This document shows, one piece after another, positions 1 through 21,487 of a DNA stretch of 23,623 nt. Both the position numbers and the translations under genes were made by a program. Positions within the stretch are counted from its first letter, which is position 1. Every line of letters starts with the position of its first letter. Source of the DNA: a virus; IMG/VR virus record IMGVR_UViG_3300021957_000308, positions 1-23,623 of that record; one strand, 5' to 3'. The notes beneath the pieces were generated by a model, which was not told the DNA's origin, made no database searches, and worked only from the letters and a program-made list of their open reading frames with translations.

Positions 1-3000
1 TATTGCAGTAAAAACTTCTTGTGCATATTCTGCTTCTGTATATACTCGTCCATCTTTTTGCTTTCTACCTACAAATGTTCCGTCTTCATTGTATTCTCCG
101 TAAGTTCCTTTTAACCTACTTAATATATTATTTACAGTGCCTTCAGATATTCCTTTACCAGACTGTTCTTGTAAATAATTGTTTAAATCTTTGCTAATGT
201 TTATTATTTCTGCATCAGTAAAAGTACGATCTAAAACGGCATGCAATACTTCATGCGGCATAGCTGCAGACAATACATCTAATTTTGATTCAAACTGTGC
301 TTGAGTACCACGAGTTCTTATTAACTTTTTATTTAAAAATATAAGCTGTTTACTTCCTTCAGTATATGGTGTTACAAAAGCAGGAGCATTTGAATTATTT
401 ACCGCTTCTTGCAGCTCTGGAGATATATCATCAGTAAATTTAAAATTACCATTTTCGTCACTTTCTACAAGTGTTACATCATCAGCAACACCTAATGATT
501 TTAAAAAGCTTAATCCATTTTTAATACCTTTTTCGTAATTTTTTATATAATCATTGAAAGTAAGAACTCCACTTTCACTGAGTTCTCCTGTTGAACTTAG
601 CTTACTTATTTCTTGATCAATGTCACCTAGCTTGTTGCTTTTTGTATTTTGATCAGTAATCATTTTTCTTGTATGCAATAAGTCAGCAAGCCTAGCTCTA
701 TTTTTATTATTTGCTTTATTGCCTAATTTAGCATTTGCTTCATCAAGAAATTGAGAATTTTCTAATATTTGATTTCCAACTTCTTCACTAATAAATTTTT
801 TCTTTTTTAATCTATCTACAAATTTGATAACCTGTTTACCATCATAGTTACCGTTAACCATGTTATCTAAATTAGTAAGATTTTTTGCTAATTTTACTGA
901 AAATCCTTTTGTTGAATTTTTGTACATTTCAAAAGCAACATTATGATAAGTACCTCCAATGCCACCAATAGCTTCATTAAACCCCTCTGTAAAACTTAAA
1001 TCTTCACCAGCAGTTTGTTGTGCTACCATTTCTCCACTAAATTCAAACCCAGGCTGCACTATAAGTTGTGACCCTAATGCTCTTGTAAATTGTTCACCAC
1101 CGGTTGCCAAAGGTTTTACCATCATACCCGCCGCTTTAGCACTCATAAAGTTTGCAATCGCTATAGGTATACCTCTTTTAATTCCTTTTTCTCTTGCTTG
1201 ACTTTGTATTTCAGGATTCATTAAAGCTTTTTCTACTGTTTCGGCATTGGTTATATCTATTTGATTTTCTTGCATAACATCTAAATATGCGTTTCCATAT
1301 TCCATACCAAAACCAGCAATCGCTGTCCATGCTTGCAATGCCTTAGCTGCTGTTGGTGCACCCCCTATAGCTGCACCACCACCTACAATTGGAAAAAATA
1401 TTTTTGAACCACTTCTTATTAATTGGCTCATTGAATTTCCAAATAAAGCTGTAGAAATTTCAAATGGATTTTGACCTAATAATTTTAATTGTTCCGCAAC
1501 AGAGTCAGCATTTAAGTATTGTTCGTATACTCTAGAATTTAATATACCTTGTTGGTATGCTTTTTCTGTGGCTATTAATTTTGCAACTTCTGCGGCATCT
1601 TCAGGGTTATCCATGTCAACGCCACCGTAAAGTTCTGACATAATAGTAGAATTGATTTTACCACTACTCCAGCCGCTTTTTATATTATTTAAAAAATTCT
1701 TATATTGATCTGTATACTCACCCCTAGTTCTTTGCACATCATCAAAGTTAAGCAACATTGTTGAAATTTCATTTAAATCGTTTAAATTTTTAGAACGTTG
1801 ATATAGTGCACTGTGCTTAGTAGAAAAATCATTTAAAGGTTTTGCATTATTAACAATAGTGTTTAGCGCATCTATTTTTGAATTTAATAAATCATTTTCT
1901 TCTTTACTTTTTGGTTTATATTTTTCTAATTTACTAATATCACTGCCAATAATTTGTTCAATTTCTTTTGTTGCATTATCTATTTGACTGTTAAATTCAT
2001 TAACTTTTAATTCAAAATTTTTATTATTAAATTCTAAATCATATGCTTGTTCCCATTCTTGCTGTAGTTTTTTCTGCTCTTGTTCAATTACAGGAATTTC
2101 TTTTTCAATTTCAGCTCCTGCTTTATTTTTAATCTCAGCATAAAATAAATTTAAATCACCCTCTGCTTTTAAAAAATCAGGGTTAGTAGTTATATTTGAA
2201 TAGTCTTTATTTTCCTTTTTAAATTTTTCTAATTCTGATTTTAAAATATCTCTTTTTGCAAAGCCATTTTGATCAAAATATTCAGGATATTTTTTTATTT
2301 CTTCTTCAGTGCCTTGATATGACCTTTGCATAATACCTGGCGCTAAAAGTTTTATTGTTAATGGAATTGGCACACTACCAGGTTGTTGATACCTTGTTGT
2401 TTTAAATTGAAGTTGTTCAATAAAATTAATTCTTTCTTGATTATTTTTACTTTTATTTTTAAGGTTTTTTATGTCTTTATAATTAAACCCTCGGCTAGCA
2501 TACCAATGATCAGCAAATAATTCTTCAGTTTGATCTTCGTCATACATTTCGCCAGAGCTTCCTTTAAATTGAACTTTGCCATCAACTCCAGATTCTATCA
2601 TTGATTTTTTCAATTTTTGAAATTCTTTAAGATCAAATTCTTCAAGCTTTTTAGGTGAAGCATAACCTACAGCGTCTTTTTTATTTGCTTTAACAAATTC
2701 TTCTAATTCATCAAAACTATTTCCCCCTCTGAATAAATCTCTTTTGTTAATTTTAAATGTTTTTGTTACAGGATTTTCAGCGTCAGTTGTAGATACTTTT
2801 ACAAAATCACCTATACCAGTTTCTTCAAAAACAAAACCATATTTGCCAAATCTTTTCATTAATTCTGGCTGTACTTTTTCTTCCGTAAAGTCTTGAAAAC
2901 TAACGGCATTTGATTTTCTAGTTCTTATATTTTCAAAGTATTTAAAATCTTCTTGTTCTTGAGGGGTAAATTTACTTGCACCTCCAGTTAAAATATTAGC

Positions 3001-3288
3001 TCTGCTTGGCGCTGATACCGATGAACCAGGATCCAATTTGGAATCCGTACTGCTTAGGTTTTCTAACCCTACACTCGCAGTCTCCTGTACAGGGTCGTTT
3101 GACTTTCCCAGTTTAAACTGAGTTTTAAACGAATCAAAATCTTTTGTATATAAACCATCTTGCGATAGTTTATTATGCAATTTTTGAGCCGCTTCATCTT
3201 CTTCAAATTGTTTTAAAAAATCATCATAGGATTTTGTATATAATTTATCAGAAAATAAATTATTATATAAAATTTTTGGATCTGCCAT
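1..3288 (-). CDS. Giant ejection-type (polyvalent) virion protein with HEVLH metallopeptidase domain, C-terminus beyond window
   Basis: An open frame of 1096 codons runs from ATG at 3288 to the window edge with no stop, so the C-terminus is missing. Residues 7-28 and 37-58 are two copies of one motif (L-x-N-x-L-x-x-D-x-LYTK-x-x-D-x-F-x-x-QF). A Ser/Pro/Asp-rich linker follows, then long charged helical stretches to about 610. Residues 630-662 are glycine- and alanine-rich and hydrophobic, and could touch membrane. Near the end, VTP at 972-974 and the strand LIFLN at 982-986 precede HEVLH at 1012-1016, the HExxH signature of zinc metallopeptidases. E1087 or E1091 could supply a third ligand. 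It follows two other ejection-type genes after a 5-nt gap. Position and size suggest a protein packaged in the virion and injected; the protease-like domain fits the known class of phage polyvalent proteins. Peptidase activity and target are inferred. It could also be purely structural. Confidence 0.85.
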   Translation of the reverse strand, partial: MADPKILYNNLFSDKLYTKSYDDFLKQFEEDEAAQKLHNKLSQDGLYTKDFDSFKTQFKLGKSNDPVQETASVGLENLSSTDSKLDPGSSVSAPSRANILTGGASKFTPQEQEDFKYFENIRTRKSNAVSFQDFTEEKVQPELMKRFGKYGFVFEETGIGDFVKVSTTDAENPVTKTFKINKRDLFRGGNSFDELEEFVKANKKDAVGYASPKKLEEFDLKEFQKLKKSMIESGVDGKVQFKGSSGEMYDEDQTEELFADHWYASRGFNYKDIKNLKNKSKNNQERINFIEQLQFKTTRYQQPGSVPIPLTIKLLAPGIMQRSYQGTEEEIKKYPEYFDQNGFAKRDILKSELEKFKKENKDYSNITTNPDFLKAEGDLNLFYAEIKNKAGAEIEKEIPVIEQEQKKLQQEWEQAYDLEFNNKNFELKVNEFNSQIDNATKEIEQIIGSDISKLEKYKPKSKEENDLLNSKIDALNTIVNNAKPLNDFSTKHSALYQRSKNLNDLNEISTMLLNFDDVQRTRGEYTDQYKNFLNNIKSGWSSGKINSTIMSELYGGVDMDNPEDAAEVAKLIATEKAYQQGILNSRVYEQYLNADSVAEQLKLLGQNPFEISTALFGNSMSQLIRSGSKIFFPIVGGGAAIGGAPTAAKALQAWTAIAGFGMEYGNAYLDVMQENQIDITNAETVEKALMNPEIQSQAREKGIKRGIPIAIANFMSAKAAGMMVKPLATGGEQFTRALGSQLIVQPGFEFSGEMVAQQTAGEDLSFTEGFNEAIGGIGGTYHNVAFEMYKNSTKGFSVKLAKNLTNLDNMVNGNYDGKQVIKFVDRLKKKKFISEEVGNQILENSQFLDEANAKLGNKANNKNRARLADLLHTRKMITDQNTKSNKLGDIDQEISKLSSTGELSESGVLTFNDYIKNYEKGIKNGLSFLKSLGVADDVTLVESDENGNFKFTDDISPELQEAVNNSNAPAFVTPYTEGSKQLIFLNKKLIRTRGTQAQFESKLDVLSAAMPHEVLHAVLDRTFTDAEIINISKDLNNYLQEQSGKGISEGTVNNILSRLKGTYGEYNEDGTFVGRKQKDGRVYTEAEYAQEVFTAI

Positions 3289-7199: not shown

Positions 7200-7231
7200 A
7201 TTATTTTATTATTACATATTTTCTTAATTCT

Positions 7232-10200
7232 CTAAGGACCAGGGTATCCGCTACAATTGTTGTCTTGGTCAATATATCGAACTTTACCACCAACTACTTC
7301 CGTATGTATACCTGTGCCATCTCCCCCTCCAACAATCTGTGTTATAACAGCACCTGAATTAAACGCGGTAGTTAGAGCAGCGTCTGTATATACCTCATCA
7401 TTATATTGTGGTGTTAATGATGTTGACGTATTTGATGTAGGCCTTTTAATATAAAAGTTTTGACTAGGGGAATTAGAATTTATAACACCACAAATATCAA
7501 GTATTGCTCCATATAAATAATTACCCCAAAACCATCCCCCCATTGTAACATCACAAGTTGCGGATGCAGAAGTTAATCCGCCATCATCAGTAACAGTCAT
7601 TGTAATTCTATATATTTTTCCAACTTCACTTGCTGGAAAATTATGATTATTTGCTGAAACAGCGCCAGTGCTCCCATTTACTGTAAATTTAGAAATTTGT
7701 GTGCCACTACTGTCTTCATCATTACCCCCTGGGTCATATGTAACACCAGTTATTGCATATGCACTTGTGCCTGTAAATATATTATCTTGATCAGGGTCTG
7801 CGCTACCATTTACCGTTGTATTTAATGGACTAAATACTACTGCTGTTGATCTAAAATGTATATGATTTGCTGTTGCTGGTAAAACTAAAGTAGGTGTTGA
7901 ATTATTCAAAGTAATTGTAAAATTTTGATATATTGCAGGATTATTTTGATTATCTAATACTTTTATCCTTACGGTATATGTATGTCCAGACGAACCATAA
8001 TAAAATTCAGCATTAGTTATTCTTAATTGATATATGCTATTGCCTGCGTCGTGAATTCCAAAATGTGTTTCTGATGCTTCTTGCAATGGTGGAGTTGCCC
8101 CATCTTCTAATACACTAACAATTGAATATGTCAAACCACTAGGAATAACTGTACCATCTTGATCCAATGTTTGCAAATTAGTACCTACTTGATTAGGCGC
8201 TGATAATCCTTCATCAAAACTTGCAGCTGTAGTGGTATTATTAAATTGTATAGTTGTTGGTATTTGGCCACTTGGTGTTCCTCCACCGCCAAATCCATCA
8301 TTAATTTCATTTTTTAAATCAGAAATTAAACCACAAGTTAAAGTCTCATAATATATATCTAAGGCGCTTTCAAATGGTTTTGTTTCCCATACTGAAAACC
8401 CTAATGTTCCAATAAATATTAGCGGTTGCTGAGTTGATATATTAGCTAATGAAACCCCAATATCGCTACCATATCCATCTGGTAATTCAGCTAATAAAGG
8501 ATTTTTTTTCCAATTATGAAATGGTAAATATGTATTACCTGTTTCTTGCTCTACGCCTGTATATGCAGGATTAATTAATTCTAATCCATGATCAATTGCT
8601 TTTCCAATACTTGTTATATCAATTAAAGGGCCATCATCCATTATATATGTTAAGTAACTATTTACTTTAGGATATAAGCTTACATTGGTTGGAAATACAG
8701 AATTATCACCAACAGATTCTTCTGTTGTATCTCTAGGTACTTTATTTATATTATCACCATGCAATACTAACCAAGTTCTTTTATCTTCATCGCTGTGATA
8801 TATACCAGAATGAGCAGCCAACGTATTCACATTTGGCACGCCATCTTTTGCCTCTGGAGCATATACGTTATAATAATCTTGTTCTGTTTGTTTTACAACA
8901 ATTTTATAAGAATACCACCCAGTTGGATTAGCTGTTGGATTAAGTGGGTCATATAGTACTGAATTACTATTTATATCACTATCCGGTATTGGCTGATTAA
9001 ATTTTATTTTTAAAACTTCGCCATTCCAGCTATTTGAAACTTCATTAGTATTTTTTGCATTAACCTTTACTATTGAATTATCTATATTATCAGATAAAAA
9101 TACAGGTGATTGTCTACCATATCTATCCGATAATACAATACCAACTTGATATGTTCTTCTTGTTTTTATTGTATGATATGGATACTGTATATGATATTTT
9201 TCGCCAGGTTCTGTGCTGCCTTTATTTTCTAAAAAAATTTCATAATCAAATGAATATGAACTATAAGGTTTATTATGAGGATTTTCTTGATAATTACCAT
9301 AAACAATTCTGTTACCTATTATTTCTTGTGCTTTAGCTTTAGCAGGTACATTATCATATACTCTAGTAACTTGTGCTTCTGGTAAAGTTTTATAAGGTAA
9401 ATTACCTTTGTACGTATAATTATATATTTTGTCAGATCCAACACTCGCATCTGTAACACTAAGTTGTGCCATAGCTTTCAATGATGGCTTATCTGATTCT
9501 TTATATAATATCTCTATTTTGTCAATTTCAAAATCAGTTGTAGGACTTGCTGAGGGCAGTTCAATTTGTAACCTAACATGTGCAATATCATTAAGAAAAC
9601 TTTCTAATTCTGTTGTTTTTGCAGCAAGCTCTTCTTGACTAGCTGTTATACCACCCGCGTTATAACTTGTTCCCGCTGAGTCTTCATAATTAGCATTATA
9701 TGTTTTGGGTATAAAACAATGCTGCGTAAACGGTGATATTAATGAATATTCTCCATCTAAATATTTAAATCTATATGCAAATCTTACAAATTTTTCTTCT
9801 AATCGTTCATTTTGGTTTAAAAATGTTAATTCTACAGGGTTTACTCCATCGTATACAATAGTAACATTTTGGTCAACCGTAATTGTTAATCCATCCGAAC
9901 TCACGCTTTCTACAACACCAATTGCTGTTCCGCTTTCATATATAGTTTGCCCCTCGTGAATATCATTGTTATAATCAGTTAATATTATATCTGTATTTGC
10001 TGTAACTGAAGTTGTAGTTTCAGCTATTGTTTTAGCTTTTTGCATACCAGTGTAGTATGTAGAGCCTTGCTGAGTTAAAACTTGGGGAGGGGTATAAGGA
10101 TAATATTTTGCTACAGATATTTTATCTTCATTATTGTAATAACTTGTATTATTAAGGGCTGTTAATACATTTATTCTTCTTGGCTGATTTAAATTGTCTG

Positions 10201-11717: not shown

Positions 11718-12470
11718 TTATGAATTTTCTAGTTGTATTACCTTTTGTTCCTCAGCGTTTGCTACTTGTATTACAGTAGGGTCTTTTATTATTACACCAG
11801 CGTGTGCTAATATTTTTATAATTAAATCAACTTGGTCGGATTTATGTATTTCAAAATCATATGACGTGCTTGCTTGATAATTATAAGCATTTGTATCAGT
11901 AACCCTTGTAAAGCTCCATTTAGGTTCTTGTGGAACTTTTACATAATCTATCGTAGCAGATGATAAAGTTGATGGTAAAAATTTAATGTTTGTACTAATT
12001 GTGTTATCTGCAGAAGTTTCTTGATTTGTAGTATTTGCAGATGATGATTCAATATAGTATACGGGGTAAGATAATGTAGGTGATGTTAATTTTGAAGCAT
12101 TTATATATGTTAATTCAGATTTTTTAACTTCTTGCAAGTTAATTGTTCTACTTTTTGTAGTTATACCTATAACTCTATATAAATCTGCTGGTAATGTTGA
12201 TGCTCCAGCTGTTATACTTAATGATGCTTCTTTTGATAAAATATCAATTTTTTCTTTTATGTTTTTTGGCAAGTTACCGTATTCGTCATTAGTTACATAG
12301 CTTTTTTTTCTATTCATTGCTTTATTATAATCATAAAAAGCTCTTTCAAGTAAGTCTAACTGCACTTGTGCACCTATTCTATTAAATTGATCCGGCGTCA
12401 AATATCCTCTACCTTCTTTATTTAATATTGAAAGTACGGTTCTATATACTGAATTTACTGATATTGCCAT
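11718..12470 (-). CDS. Head-tail adaptor (ring) protein candidate, 250 residues
   Basis: The N-terminus is helical (SVYRTVLSILNKEGRGYLTP and on to LLERAFYDYNKAMNRKK, about 7-56), a layout common in phage adaptor proteins that clamp under the portal. The middle is beta-rich, with STLPADLYRVIGITTKSRTI (about 91-110) and a Ser/Thr/Asn-rich loop near 143-158. The C-terminal helix, VDLIIKILAHAGVIIKDPTV (about 217-236), could pack against the portal or the next ring. Order within the block (portal, scaffold, coat, unknown, this gene, ring, nozzle) matches an adaptor. It starts 17 nt after a UUCG-loop hairpin, with an all-A/T leader. The NKEGRGYLTPDQ stretch faintly resembles an EF-hand loop but lacks the needed acidic residues. 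Confidence 0.75.
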   Translation of the reverse strand: MAISVNSVYRTVLSILNKEGRGYLTPDQFNRIGAQVQLDLLERAFYDYNKAMNRKKSYVTNDEYGNLPKNIKEKIDILSKEASLSITAGASTLPADLYRVIGITTKSRTINLQEVKKSELTYINASKLTSPTLSYPVYYIESSSANTTNQETSADNTISTNIKFLPSTLSSATIDYVKVPQEPKWSFTRVTDTNAYNYQASTSYDFEIHKSDQVDLIIKILAHAGVIIKDPTVIQVANAEEQKVIQLENS

Positions 12471-12492
12471 ATTTTTTTTATATAATGATTAA

Positions 12493-12506
12493 GCCGCCGA
12501 AGCGGC
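12493..12506 (-). terminator. Hairpin with UUCG tetraloop after the 252-residue gene
   Basis: In the minus-strand RNA this reads GCCGC UUCG GCGGC: five G-C pairs closed by the very stable C(UUCG)G tetraloop. It begins 16 nt after the TAG stop of the 252-residue gene. The following bases (UUAAUCAUUAUAU) are AU-rich but hold no long U run, so it may be a weak or leaky terminator, an mRNA 3'-end stabiliser or a processing barrier. It stands out as the most GC-rich patch in an AT-rich gap. Confidence 0.6.
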
Positions 12507-12522
12507 ATAACCACTGTAACGA

Positions 12523-13281
12523 CTATTTAAGTTTTTTCTCAATTGTTTGATAAACTTCAACACCTTCATCTGTTTTAAACCAAGCAGCTAAAGCTGAATA
12601 TGGATTTTCATCAAATGGTACTGTTATAAGTTTTCTATCTGTCGATCCCCAAGTAAATGTTCTTTGATCGCTTGAAAGTTTAATAATGTTATTTTCTACG
12701 GCTTTTATACCCATATTTCTAACATTTATGTTTTCGTCATTTGCAAGTTCTAAGAACAGGTTTGGATTGTTTCTAGCAAATAATAGTAGATCTCTTTTAA
12801 GCTCCTTAGAAGTCATCTTAGATACCTCATTTCCAATTTCTGACCTCAAAATTGCTTCAGCGTGATCAACATCTAAAGTTCTTGCTGTGTTCAACGCTTC
12901 GATTTCTAATTCCAATACATCTAAATCATCTTCTGCGATAGCAACTGGATTGTATTCAATAAATTTGCTACCGTTATGTGGATGATGTGCTAGAAAAATT
13001 TGTAATGTTTGTTTTTCTTTTGGAACAAATAATTTACCATCTCTAAATGATATATGGTCTAATCTTTGATCTCCTTTCATTTCATCTACAAATATTGTTT
13101 TTTGATTTGCACAATATTTAATTTCTCTTTCGTATCCTTTTTCTTTATCAAACCATAAGATACCTCTTGTTTTGATTTTGTATACAACAGGTGTTTCTCT
13201 TATGTTTAATTCGTATAATTTGTCTTTAATTTCCCATTTAGGCGCTTGCACCTCAACAGGCTTTGTTTTTGTTTTTGCCAT
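12523..13281 (-). CDS. Unknown virion-block protein encoded directly after the major capsid gene, 252 residues
   Basis: No named family is recognised. The N-terminal half is beta-rich with a Lys-rich start and a notable GKLFVPKEKQTLQIFLAHHP segment (87-106 by count). A helical middle (about 118-205) contains ELKRDLLLFARNNPNLFLEL and ENINVRNMGIKAVENNIIKL, which resembles one HEAT-type helical pair. The C-terminus (TFTWGSTDRKLITVPFDENP followed by YSALAAWFKTDEGVEVY) is compact and aromatic and looks like a conserved domain. There is no signal peptide or membrane segment. It lies between coat protein and adaptor and is bracketed by two hairpins, so its mRNA level is likely set separately from the coat gene. 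A head-completion, decoration or assembly role is possible, but only position supports it. The stop is TAG. Confidence 0.8.
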   Translation of the reverse strand: MAKTKTKPVEVQAPKWEIKDKLYELNIRETPVVYKIKTRGILWFDKEKGYEREIKYCANQKTIFVDEMKGDQRLDHISFRDGKLFVPKEKQTLQIFLAHHPHNGSKFIEYNPVAIAEDDLDVLELEIEALNTARTLDVDHAEAILRSEIGNEVSKMTSKELKRDLLLFARNNPNLFLELANDENINVRNMGIKAVENNIIKLSSDQRTFTWGSTDRKLITVPFDENPYSALAAWFKTDEGVEVYQTIEKKLK

Positions 13282-13318
13282 GATATAATATAATAAAAAT
13301 GTTAATAAAGGTAAAGAT

Positions 13319-13343
13319 TACCCCCGTAGTTACAACGAGGGTA
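13319..13343 (-). terminator. Hairpin after the major capsid gene
   Basis: In minus-strand RNA the sequence UACCCUCGU ... ACGGGGGUA forms a 9-bp stem with a 7-nt loop (13328-13334). One pair is U-G in this RNA but would be a C-A mismatch in plus-strand RNA, which supports function in the minus-strand transcript. It begins 16 nt after the coat stop codon. The following bases, AUCUUUACCUUUAUU, hold only short U runs, so termination may be partial. A leaky stop here would give more coat mRNA than downstream mRNA. Confidence 0.6.
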
Positions 13344-13359
13344 AAATTTACTTTAAATA

Positions 13360-14784
13360 TTAAGAGTCAAATCTAACAAAGTTGTTAGCAGCTTGAACTA
13401 CTAAACATCTTTCTGATAGATAGTGTACTTCCATCTTGTCATCACCGATTGTAGATGCACCACCTACTGAACCTGTAATCCAAGTTTTCATTTTTCTATC
13501 ATCAGCTTCGCTAGCTCTATATCTTACGTGTAAGAAAGGTCTCTTAACGTTTTTACCTAATTGCTGATCGTAAACAGATGTAGTACCTGCTGGGATTAAT
13601 AATCCGCTTAAACCACCAACTAAACCTCTTGTAGACTTATTATTTAAGTACTTCCAGTCAGTTTTGTAAAAATCATAAGATCCTCTTCTAAATCCTGTAA
13701 ATCCAAGATTTAATGCCATATCTTCTGAGTTATTAAATACCCCATAAGCAGTACCACCTTGTGCACCTGCTGATAGACCAGCTAATAAATCATCGAATAC
13801 TAAATTAGCGTCTCTATTTAAGAACAACATGTTTTCTTCAATAGCTCCTTGCTTATCTAGTTCTTTTAATAAGTCATCATACTCGCTTAATGTAGCACCT
13901 GAATCAAATTGATTGCTTGCAACAATCCCTCTGTTTCCGATAGCTTGTAATAAACCTTCAGATCCTTCAACACCTACTGTAGATGTACCATCAGCTTTTT
14001 CAGCTTCTACTAGTACCATCTCTAAGTAATCTTCAAATCTTTTAGTTGTATCACCTTGCGATTTTAAATACCACAAGTATCCACCTTGTCCAGATTCTCC
14101 AGAAACTTCAACCCACCCAATTTGAGCAGCATCAGATCCTTGAATTTCAAAGTGATCTTTAATGATCATTGGTTTGTTAGTGAAAGTTTTGAAGTTTGGC
14201 TCTACTGAGTCAGTCATACTTGCACTACCTTTGATAAATTCAGAACCGTAAACAAAGAAAGAAATTGCAACCGCAGTATCACCCGCTGCTAAATTTCCTA
14301 CGTCTTGTAAATTTGCACCTGCATAAGGCTTAATAGTTAAACCTGTTTCAGAAGCTTCGATACCAGCTGTTACTAAACATTTTACAACTTCAGTACCACC
14401 AGCACCTACAACAGAAGCTACAACAGTAGCACCTTTTCTTACAGCGTGCTTGTTGCTTGACCCACCGTCGATGTCAGTGATTGCAGTAATTTCTCCGTTA
14501 GTACAGTTAACAGTACCGTTATATGCTAAGTGTAATCTACCTTGCTCCGACCAAATTACTTGATCAGAAGCCATAGGCATTTCAGCACCTATCATTTTAA
14601 TAAATCCAGATATAGATCTATCTCCATATCTTTCTACTTCAGCCTCATATAGCTCTGGTAAATATTGTTGTGCCCAACCGTTGTTTTGGATGTCTAAGTA
14701 GTTTTGCCCATAGACCATCTTTTGCGCAGCTGGTGAAACAATACTTCCTGCTACAGGACCTACAAATGTATTATTGTTTGCCAT
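13360..14784 (-). CDS. Major capsid protein
   Basis: The size (474 residues), order (terminase, portal, scaffold, this gene) and composition fit a major coat protein of the HK97 fold. The N-terminus is flexible (MANNNTFVGPVAGSIVSPAA). Next comes the helix-rich YLPELYEAEVERYGDRSISG block (42-61), then SDQVIWSEQGRLHLAYNG (73-90), a pattern I associate with coat proteins of environmental tailed phages. A Gly/Ala/Val-rich beta region spans about 90-190. Acidic helices near 255-330 (EDYLEMVLVEAEKADG) and a late basic stretch (KNVKRPFLHVRYRASEADDR) follow. Its DNA appears less AT-rich than that of neighbouring genes, with more C-ending codons, which fits a highly expressed gene. It starts 20 nt after the scaffold stop and is followed by a hairpin. 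The fold assignment is inferred; coat identity is strongly supported by context. Confidence 0.9.
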   Translation of the reverse strand: MANNNTFVGPVAGSIVSPAAQKMVYGQNYLDIQNNGWAQQYLPELYEAEVERYGDRSISGFIKMIGAEMPMASDQVIWSEQGRLHLAYNGTVNCTNGEITAITDIDGGSSNKHAVRKGATVVASVVGAGGTEVVKCLVTAGIEASETGLTIKPYAGANLQDVGNLAAGDTAVAISFFVYGSEFIKGSASMTDSVEPNFKTFTNKPMIIKDHFEIQGSDAAQIGWVEVSGESGQGGYLWYLKSQGDTTKRFEDYLEMVLVEAEKADGTSTVGVEGSEGLLQAIGNRGIVASNQFDSGATLSEYDDLLKELDKQGAIEENMLFLNRDANLVFDDLLAGLSAGAQGGTAYGVFNNSEDMALNLGFTGFRRGSYDFYKTDWKYLNNKSTRGLVGGLSGLLIPAGTTSVYDQQLGKNVKRPFLHVRYRASEADDRKMKTWITGSVGGASTIGDDKMEVHYLSERCLVVQAANNFVRFDS

Positions 14785-14804: not shown

Positions 14805-16019
14805 TTAATAATTTTTCAGTTTTAATTTTAGCCCTGAATTATTATCACCTGAAATAACTCTCACTTTTGTGCCGCCGGCTTCAACAAACCCATCAGCAGT
14901 TTTTCTAGGATCCATATTAATGTTCTTAGCTTCTGCCGTCATTTGTTTTATAGTGTCTGCTTTGCCTTGCTCATAAAAGTGATTAGCTATTGCGTCAGGA
15001 TTAGAAGCAGCAAATAAAGCTTTATGAAAATCACCAGAGTTGGTTAGGAGCGAATCCTGATTAACAAATTTATCAAAGACACTTGATATATTCTGTGTTT
15101 TCACTTTGCTTACATCTTTAACATTGAAACGATATTTTTTTTCTCCAACATTGAAATTAAAACCTTTAAAATCATTATTGAAAACTTTATTAGTTTCTTG
15201 CTCAAAATGTGATGTTTGCTTCTGCAATAATTCATCGGCTTGTTTTTGCTCTTCAGTATATCGATTGAAAAAGTCAACTGCTTTTTGTTGCTCAGGAGCT
15301 AACTTAGAACCCAACTTGACTTCTTTGTAATATGTGTCCTTGAGACCTGTCAAAAAGTTTTTAGCTTTTGCAACCTCTTCCTTAAGAGCTAATTTTTTTC
15401 TTTTTATATCTCTATCCTCATCTACTTCTTCGTCATATGAAAAATTATCTTCCATAAGGAATTGTATTTCATCATAACTTAAATGAGGTTTAGTTTGTTT
15501 ATAGTATTCAGCTAATAATGCATCTTGATCTACATTACTATAATCCGCGTTTAACCTAACATAATCTTCCAGGGTACCACCTGTTTCATTCATGAACTTT
15601 ACTAAGTCCATCATGTTTTCAGGATATTCTACCTCTGGTTCTTTTGTTTTAGCTTTGATTTCTTCAGCTGGCTCAGTTTTGCTTTCTTCTTGCTCTGCAA
15701 CCACTGGAGCCTCACCATTACTGGTTTCGTCATTAATTATTTCTTCTAATACTGGTGTTTCTTCTACTTTTTCTTGTTGTACTTCTTGCAATTCCACTTC
15801 GGTTTCTTGCCCAGCTTTTTCATTCTCGCTGCTTCCGCGTAACACGCCATTTTCTGTTTCTTGTTCTTGAACGGCATCTGTTTCTGTTTTAGGTTCGCTT
15901 AAATTTACTTTGTACATGCCAGACTCCGTGTCATAATTGGAATCTTTCTGCACCGCTTCTTCTTGTTCAGCAATAGACTTTTCTTCAGCATCTATTACTT
16001 TTGCTTTAATTTCTGCCAT
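14805..16019 (-). CDS. Capsid scaffolding protein
   Basis: This 404-residue protein lies between portal and coat genes, the usual place for the scaffold. The first 135 residues are very acidic and low in complexity (Glu, Gln, Thr and Val repeats such as ETEVELQEVQQEKVEETP), with no aromatic core, so probably disordered. The middle (about 135-300) is charged and helical, with KRKKLALKEEVAKAKNFLTG and QKQADELLQKQTSHFEQET suited to coiled coils. The tail is basic (SGLKLKLKNY) and could dock on the acidic inner face of coat subunits, as in P22- and phi29-type scaffolds. No protease motif is visible. It begins after a 29-nt gap below the portal. It could instead be a head assembly chaperone without strict scaffold behaviour. 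Confidence 0.8.
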   Translation of the reverse strand: MAEIKAKVIDAEEKSIAEQEEAVQKDSNYDTESGMYKVNLSEPKTETDAVQEQETENGVLRGSSENEKAGQETEVELQEVQQEKVEETPVLEEIINDETSNGEAPVVAEQEESKTEPAEEIKAKTKEPEVEYPENMMDLVKFMNETGGTLEDYVRLNADYSNVDQDALLAEYYKQTKPHLSYDEIQFLMEDNFSYDEEVDEDRDIKRKKLALKEEVAKAKNFLTGLKDTYYKEVKLGSKLAPEQQKAVDFFNRYTEEQKQADELLQKQTSHFEQETNKVFNNDFKGFNFNVGEKKYRFNVKDVSKVKTQNISSVFDKFVNQDSLLTNSGDFHKALFAASNPDAIANHFYEQGKADTIKQMTAEAKNINMDPRKTADGFVEAGGTKVRVISGDNNSGLKLKLKNY

Positions 16020-16048
16020 AATAAAATATTATATAATTATTTAAAAAT

Positions 16049-20677: not shown

Positions 20678-20949
20678 TACTTAGATCTTCTTTCCGCAAA
20701 GCCTTTAAATGACTCAGCTCTTTCTTCTATATTCTTGCCTTCTAATAATGCTTTTTCAATTTCGATTCTATTTAATATCTCAAATGCATCGAATATTGCG
20801 AGCTTTTTAGTGGCTGCAGCGTTCTTGAGTCGATCGGCTGAAACATCATCATCAGTTTCAACAATCGGTTCTTTTGCAACTTTAATGAGCTCTTTGACTG
20901 CTTCATAGCCAGCTTGGATTATATTCTGTTTCTGTTCCTTGACGTTCAT
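20677..20949 (-). CDS. Candidate small terminase subunit, 90 residues
   Basis: A short, highly charged helical protein (NVKEQKQNIIQAGYEAVKEL at 2-21, then SADRLKNAAATKKLAIFDAF at 38-57) with no Cys and a basic end (FAERRSK). It lies immediately before the large terminase and overlaps its start by one base (TAATG), the usual place of the small subunit that recognises phage DNA. A classical helix-turn-helix is not evident, and at 90 residues it is shorter than many small terminases. Its own start overlaps the end of the 194-residue gene by 47 nt; no later in-frame ATG exists. The function is inferred from position. Confidence 0.65.
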   Translation of the reverse strand: MNVKEQKQNIIQAGYEAVKELIKVAKEPIVETDDDVSADRLKNAAATKKLAIFDAFEILNRIEIEKALLEGKNIEERAESFKGFAERRSK

Positions 20950-21487
20950 ACTTAATCGATATTGAATTAGTTAATACTCTATACATTCTTTCACCATCAA
21001 CAATGAATTCATATTCACTCATTGGCGTGAAACCAACTAAATCTTCTTTTTGTATATCTTTAAGTTCTTTATCAACATACTTTATAATACCACGCAAAGG
21101 CATTTCTTTTTCAATAATATCATTTGATTCAATTGGTTTAACAAAACAATAACCTTTTGGCGCGTGCCATTTACCGTTTCGTTTATATAAAAATATTTGG
21201 TCTTTATAAACAAGGTATTGATCTTCTTTATAATAGCTTTTACTATTTCTTTCTTTACCTCGCCCATCAAACCATCTCCTAAATACATTGTGATGTACAA
21301 TAACTTCGTCACCCACTTGTATTTCAGTTTTTTCTGATTTAGGTAATGATGTCACAATCCCAACACGACTAACATATCGATGATCAGAGATCTCTGTATT
21401 TAACAAAAGCTCCTGACCATCAATATATTTTTTGTTATTGTATCTTTCGTTCTTAGGTTTAACTATAAAGTTAAATAAACTGTGCAT
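20903..21487 (-). CDS. GroES-like co-chaperonin candidate with two tandem barrels
   Basis: This 194-residue protein appears to hold two copies of the GroES-type beta-barrel pattern. Module one: FIVKP (7-11), a loop with GQELLLN (24-30), RVGIVTSLP (41-49) and IQVGDEVIVHHN (56-67). Module two: CFVKPIE (114-120), RGIIKYVD (132-139), IQKEDLVGFT (145-154) and a GroES-like finish, VDGERMYRVLTNSISIKYE (163-181). In GroES the order is an IVK strand, mobile loop, RGEV strand, VGD strand and final helper strand, and the spacing here fits. L27-L29 could be the hydrophobic tripeptide that contacts GroEL. T4 gp31 and other phage co-chaperonins serve coat protein folding, consistent with the location beside packaging and capsid genes. 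The start shares a base with the upstream stop (TAATG). This is a pattern-based call. Confidence 0.6.
   Translation of the reverse strand: MHSLFNFIVKPKNERYNNKKYIDGQELLLNTEISDHRYVSRVGIVTSLPKSEKTEIQVGDEVIVHHNVFRRWFDGRGKERNSKSYYKEDQYLVYKDQIFLYKRNGKWHAPKGYCFVKPIESNDIIEKEMPLRGIIKYVDKELKDIQKEDLVGFTPMSEYEFIVDGERMYRVLTNSISIKYERQGTETEYNPSWL

Follow-up and report, generated by a model that had tools for sequence, protein, structure and literature searches.

Gene content of the window and its relatives

The window, by which we mean the whole stretch of DNA analyzed, is a 23.6-kb virus record with a G+C content of 33%. A late gene block lies on its minus strand, with terminase and portal genes followed by a 404-aa gene, the coat gene, a 252-residue gene, and more structural genes. 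The window is part of the genome of a relative of the Flavobacterium, Cellulophaga, and Maribacter phages: the coat protein matches 85 named phage records (Flavobacterium, 68; Cellulophaga, 15; Maribacter, 1; unclassified, 1), and the hosts of these relatives make a flavobacterial host likely. Intergenic gaps from the terminase gene onward are mostly tight. The two longest, of 78 and 52 nt, border the 252-residue gene, and each contains one hairpin, so that this gene is bounded by two hairpins, as a sequence-only reading had proposed. The genes concerned are as follows:

14805..16019, minus strand: 404-aa gene between the portal and coat genes, putative scaffold (position alone)
13360..14784, minus strand: major capsid (coat) protein gene, 474 aa (phrog_13704, virion structural protein, 1.2e-98)
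12523..13281, minus strand: 252-residue gene (phrog_34748, 1.4e-29)
11718..12470, minus strand: next gene, 250-aa virion structural protein (phrog_14543, 2.6e-37)

The putative scaffold has no PHROGs match; a gene at the equivalent place is also found in L082 to L085. The AlphaFold model of the 252-residue protein (pLDDT, 86) matches uncharacterized proteins of Tenacibaculum phage Gundel_1, phi14:2, and crAss-like phages, which suggests that the family is wide. A PDB fold search for this protein returned nothing below 0.001, and a PDB sequence profile search returned two weak matches (E values of 0.021 and 0.63) that were left unused.

Clade W comprises the window and the best 80 of at least 600 coat-protein relatives from a scan of viral contigs, and it forms one clade (support, 95/97) in a coat-protein tree of 68 rows. 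The root of this tree, and hence the direction of change, depends on a single long-branched outgroup (phi38:1). In all 80 of the relatives kept as the best of at least 600, the coat gene is followed by a homologue of the 252-residue gene. Clade M consists of 80 loci around MW202828 (the best 80 of at least 600 matches), and clade E consists of 50 loci around the elemo phages. Site one is the position after the coat gene, and site two is that after the 252-residue gene. Site two was scored in 69 of the 81 clade W loci, the region being incomplete in the other 12.

Hairpins at the two gene borders

Folding of the window recovered both hairpins at the minus-strand positions proposed in the sequence-only reading, together with the sequences that follow them:

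13306..13355, minus strand: hairpin one, full stem (core, 13318-13344), from folding, clade-wide occurrence, and covariation
13296..13317, minus strand: U-rich stretch 3′ of the hairpin one core, a terminator-like site in a scan, with T-rich tails in the clade
12484..12515, minus strand: hairpin two, full stem (core, 12493-12506, with a C(UUCG)G loop), from folding, clade-wide occurrence, and covariation
12471..12483, minus strand: A-rich unpaired leader from hairpin two to the next start codon, from the sequence

The stem of hairpin one, described earlier as 9 bp, exists, but its core has 10 pairs, of which one is U-G and the tenth is U-A, and an outer helix lengthens it to 13306-13355. The minus-strand RNA has a folding energy of −19.6 kcal/mol (z = −5.1), and the plus strand, at −17.7, has an internal mismatch opposite the minus-strand U-G pair, in agreement with the claim that the hairpin is fully paired in the minus-strand RNA alone. 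The lowest-z 60-nt segment of the whole minus strand contains this hairpin. The core of hairpin two is as previously described, with five G-C pairs closing C(UUCG)G, and eight more pairs lie past a U-U mismatch, giving a stem of 13 pairs and one mismatch in the window (minus strand, −17.5, z = −5.0; plus strand, −11.9).

Both hairpins had been said to begin 16 nt after a stop codon, and the equality of the two distances had been taken as meaningful. The distance is exact for the core stems, but the full stems start 4 and 7 nt after the stops. Furthermore, the two RNAfold core offsets coincide in 2 of 69 clade W loci, where permutation gives a mean of 3.2, and in none of the 69 are both of them 16. 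Site-one offsets span 9 to 23 nt, and the site-two median is 12 nt. By these counts, the equal spacing is a coincidence.

The sequences following the stems also differ between the two sites. Hairpin one has the stable G+C-rich stem-loop expected at the transcript end of an intrinsic terminator. The first part of the U-rich stretch pairs within its outer helix, and the U-tract in the window is weak (score, 2.49; longest T run, 3). Across clade W, the site-one U-tract has a median score of 2.86 and a T run of at least 5 in 48 of 81 loci; the first 8 nt after the stem average 5.5 T, with at least 5 T in 60/81. Hairpin two lacks the U-tract of a terminator: the tail in the window is TTATATAAAAAAAAT, with a longest T run of 2, and in clade W the median score is 1.10, with a T run of at least 5 in 6 of the 67 loci scored. 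Here the first 8 nt after the stem average 5.7 A, and 60/69 loci have at least 5 A. T-rich tails (at least 4 T in 8) occur at site two in 6/69 clade W loci, and termination might still take place in these few relatives. Two loci with a T-rich tail at site two, L037 and L052, have stems ending 13 nt from the ATG, which leaves no space for an intervening promoter and would imply read-through. Stems in clade W mostly have 12 to 19 pairs at site one and reach 24 pairs at site two. A common design for the two hairpins is not supported, given the free variation in spacing and the T-rich tail at site one versus the A-rich tail at site two; on this comparison, they are probably different devices at adjacent borders rather than two uses of one design.

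One site-one stem, ACCCTCG...CGGGGGT with the U-G pair (window positions 13318-13344), is found in 22/81 clade W loci and in one distant clade M locus, L263. It alternates with dissimilar stems in close relatives, as though terminator alleles were swapped.

Conservation, covariation, and strand

The sequence-only reading had looked to compensatory changes and stem conservation in relatives, and both were found. A hairpin is present at site one in 81/81 clade W loci (the window plus the best 80 of at least 600) and at site two in 68 of the 69 with a complete region. Values of z below −2 against dinucleotide shuffles were obtained for 81/81 loci at site one and 67/69 at site two, whereas three coding regions used as controls gave 10, 11, and 19 of 81. 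The stems of clade W belong to several dissimilar sequence types, across which pairing persists. Alignment of 25 loci with MAFFT, without fitting to a model, leaves 92.4% of cells paired, with 18 double-change cells versus 8.1 in shuffles. The model-fitted alignments, restricted to coding-strand, on-site matches (38/58 at site one and 74/91 at site two; of the matches left out, 3 were off-site and the others were on the opposite strand), have 97.0% and 95.1% of cells paired versus 86.3% and 72.0% when shuffled, with double changes at 13/17 and 16/16 pairs. The best-conserved type at site two, taken by itself, shows slight covariation (one double-change pair, equaled by 24/500 shuffles). At the level of sequence comparison, both hairpins are confirmed as real, conserved RNA structures beyond chance.

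Exact stem patterns of site one were at the expected gene border in viral contigs at 92/92 distinct sites among the matches listed, and those of site two were at the expected border at 23/24, the 24th being too near a contig end for its upstream side to be judged. The covariance model of either site matches almost solely its own site, and an Rfam search of the window gave no match at the gathering score. L032 is the only one of the 69 loci from which hairpin two is absent, which indicates that the hairpin is dispensable at least there. In L032, a 179-aa open reading frame (about 7206-7745) occupies the place of hairpin two, just after the stop of the 252-residue homologue. Insertion of an extra gene at site two was rejected as a general rule because L032 is alone in this among loci in which the next gene was found.

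In 76/81 loci at site one and 66/69 at site two, the coding-strand RNA folds more stably than its complement, a count that is independent of alignment. G-U pairs number 96 at each site in the model-fitted alignments versus 3 and 2 A-C mismatches, a ratio that leans because the alignment models themselves favor G-U. The C(UUCG)G loop occurs in 24/75 distinct site-one and 11/65 distinct site-two sequences of clade W, and its complement occurs in 0 and 0. Pairing, rather than the loop, is the conserved property of the stems, UUCG being present in part of clade W alone. The bias toward sense-strand stability and the sense-only UUCG loops indicate that both elements function as RNA, read in the same direction as the genes, and by these measures they are hairpins of the late transcript from the minus strand. 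DNA-level palindromes (protein sites or cruciforms) or antisense terminators would also appear as inverted repeats in DNA, and hairpin one does fold on both strands of the window; however, the three strand counts above largely refute such elements as an explanation, and we give it scarcely any probability. Comparative data can therefore separate RNA function from DNA palindromes by a strand test of G-U versus A-C and UUCG versus CGAA.

The same gene borders in sister clades

At site two, the median hairpin energy is −21.2 kcal/mol in clade W versus −11.6 in clade M and −11.4 in clade E, and the median U-tract scores of 5.74 (M) and 5.69 (E) exceed that of clade W given above. The site-one score in clade M is 4.08, and 47 of the 72 hairpins scored there (of 76 loci) have a T run of at least 5. 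TAnnTTTG, reported as the flavobacterial sigma-A −7 box (PMC9723704), follows site two in 2/68 loci of clade W, 66/68 of clade M, and 38/38 of clade E. It precedes the scaffold-position gene in 1/64, 64/66, and 42/42 loci, respectively. After site one, before the 252-residue gene, it is found in 0/81, 0/76, and 33/37, site one having been located in 76/80 clade M and 37/50 clade E loci for this count. Intergenic TAnnTTTG density is about background in clade W and nearly threefold above it in clades M and E, as counted with crude gene calls in seven W and four M/E records.

At site two, clades M and E are predicted to have a strong terminator with a host-type TAnnTTTG promoter after it. In clade E, the 252-residue gene looks like a separate transcription unit, with putative promoters before and after it. 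In clade M, a terminator-like hairpin precedes the gene and the box does not, so the gene probably lives on read-through. The terminator with TAnnTTTG in the elemo phages, MW202828, phi38:1, and Panino is at the same genomic sites, among orthologous genes, whereas clade W is nearly without TAnnTTTG at three sites and has lost the U-tract at site two. A stepwise loss of the box cannot be traced inside clade W, since the box is found in the 2/68 site-two loci alone.

These abundant, little-studied phages offer a natural comparison in which the same two gene borders have different regulatory content in each clade: a putative terminator and host promoter in some, versus a predicted leaky terminator or a U-less hairpin without a host promoter in clade W. 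With this contrast, one can test directly how capsid-gene dosage is set and whether sigma use may have switched from host to phage. No description of terminators, hairpins, or promoters in these phages was found in the literature searched, at the level of titles and abstract openings, and the paper on Baltic Flavobacterium phages (PMC7077304) lacks the words promoter, terminator, and hairpin.

An AT-only motif and a phage sigma factor

Two genes of the window are preceded directly by an AT-only element:

13282..13298, minus strand: 17-nt AT motif TTTTATTATATTATATC, adjoining the ATG of the 252-residue gene, near-invariant in 80 loci
16020..16036, minus strand: second copy of the AT motif, adjoining the ATG of the putative scaffold gene, from a matrix match

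The second copy is the second-highest minus-strand match in the window to a matrix built from the 252-residue gene sites. In clade W, leaders of the 252-residue gene end in TAT[CT] in 78/81 loci, and those of the scaffold-position gene end in T[AT]T[CT], a pattern one letter looser, in 64/64; the leader ending of the AT motif occurs before the coat gene in 2/80 and before the next gene in 9/68. Further matches are scattered in three long records, and strong ones are confined to the scaffold-position and 252-residue sites, which makes a general late promoter less likely. Upstream of clade W genes, the 7-mer ATATTAT ranks with the most overrepresented words (37 of 230 regions versus 10.6 expected), although this count uses crude gene calls and the contexts share no extended consensus. 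No coevolution of the two copies within genomes was detected beyond the clade consensus (0.783 versus 0.779).

A sigma-70 factor is encoded by a relative (L367:1958-2689, minus strand; phrog_351, 2e-21). The sigma protein was found in 7 of 25 clade W records, many of which are short fragments, and Pfam Sigma70_r2 was found in 7 of 10 longer ones, 5 of them over the cut-off. None was detected among clade M, clade E, and named records, of which 30 were covered by the protein search and 27 by the Pfam search, and the window fragment itself shows no sigma gene (best match, E = 0.78). This suggests that the AT motif may be a phage-specific promoter. A role as a translation signal is an equal alternative, as the scaffold-position and 252-residue genes of clade M also have similar leaders, with a consensus ending in AAATCAA before the ATG, although one gene alone has TAnnTTTG.

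Possible roles of the two hairpins

From the structures, strand, and tails compared across the loci, we infer how termination, read-through, and processing may proceed at the two borders and in which direction they may have changed. Hairpin one would be a leaky intrinsic terminator that ends many coat transcripts and leaves a protected 3′ end, and read-through past it would supply the 252-residue gene. In Flavobacterium psychrophilum, predicted intrinsic terminators at which termination is partial are a recognized class (PMC9723704). Hairpin two would be a converted terminator that acts on mRNA ends or stability. In clade W, site two has lost both the U-tract and the promoter, and its hairpin has about double the stability, so hairpin two most likely no longer stops RNA polymerase and works on the message instead. 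It may be a processing site or a 3′- or 5′-end stabilizer between the 252-residue cistron and the next, and it may prevent the A-rich region at the start of the next gene from pairing. We regard this pair of roles, a leaky terminator followed by a converted one, as having about an even chance of being correct.

The weak U-tract after hairpin one in the window means that a pure RNA-stability role fits hairpin one nearly as well. Both hairpins might thus serve purely in mRNA processing or 3′-end protection, through RNase cleavage or an exonuclease block, with hairpin one not terminating at all. The stems are longer than a terminator needs, and the U-tract of the window is interrupted as well as weak. 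However, the tail after hairpin one is T-rich in most clade W loci, and U-tracts are present at site one in clade M too, so we consider a pure processing role unlikely. A main role of hairpin two in translation, whether insulating the start of the next gene or coupling it to or uncoupling it from the 252-residue stop, would suit the span of most stems, from shortly past the stop to about 9 to 16 nt before the ATG with an A-rich leader following, and initiation in F. johnsoniae is reported to be tuned by mRNA structure and by an A at −3 (PMC6847099). Nevertheless, the predicted terminator and promoter at site two in the sister clades mark a transcript boundary rather than coupling, and such a role seems quite improbable as the main one. 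The sequence-only reading had both hairpins, as equivalents at a fixed 16-nt spacing, jointly setting coat and downstream mRNA levels. Conserved sense-strand hairpins at both sites agree with it, but the lack of conserved spacing and the U-less, A-rich tail at site two leave it very little likelihood. For hairpin one alone, setting coat relative to downstream mRNA levels is plausible.

On a wider view, clade W may have rewired its late transcription: it would have gained a sigma-70 factor, dropped TAnnTTTG before the scaffold-position gene and the next gene, used the AT element at the start codons of the scaffold-position and 252-residue genes as a phage promoter giving nearly leaderless mRNAs, and turned the terminator after the 252-residue gene into a nonterminating, extra-stable hairpin. 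This wider scenario is possible but doubtful.

Phage T4 has intercistronic C(UUCG)G hairpins, and the likeness is that of very stable UUCG-capped hairpins between genes; in clade W, however, the loop is only partly shared and the pairing is what is kept. The mRNAs of phage T7 have RNase III processing sites, which are long, nearly perfect stems between cistrons. The hairpins described here resemble these in being long stems between cistrons, although stem two of the window has 13 pairs with one mismatch. According to an account of T7 (PMC6068830), the incomplete terminator T-phi is directly downstream of the major capsid gene 10A, with the scaffold gene just upstream. Hairpin one shares this position right after the capsid gene, as a T-phi-like terminator would require, as well as the scaffold-position gene upstream. 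The T7 terminator, in contrast, acts on T7's own single-subunit RNA polymerase, and no PHROGs match to an RNA polymerase core was found among 19 proteins of one clade W record.

Other observations on the window

An open frame of at least 1,096 codons occupies positions 1-3288 of the minus strand and exits the left end of the window. We also found a GroES-like protein in the window (20903-21487) and GroEL in a relative (L367:15478-17043), which suggests that clade W brings its own chaperonin parts.
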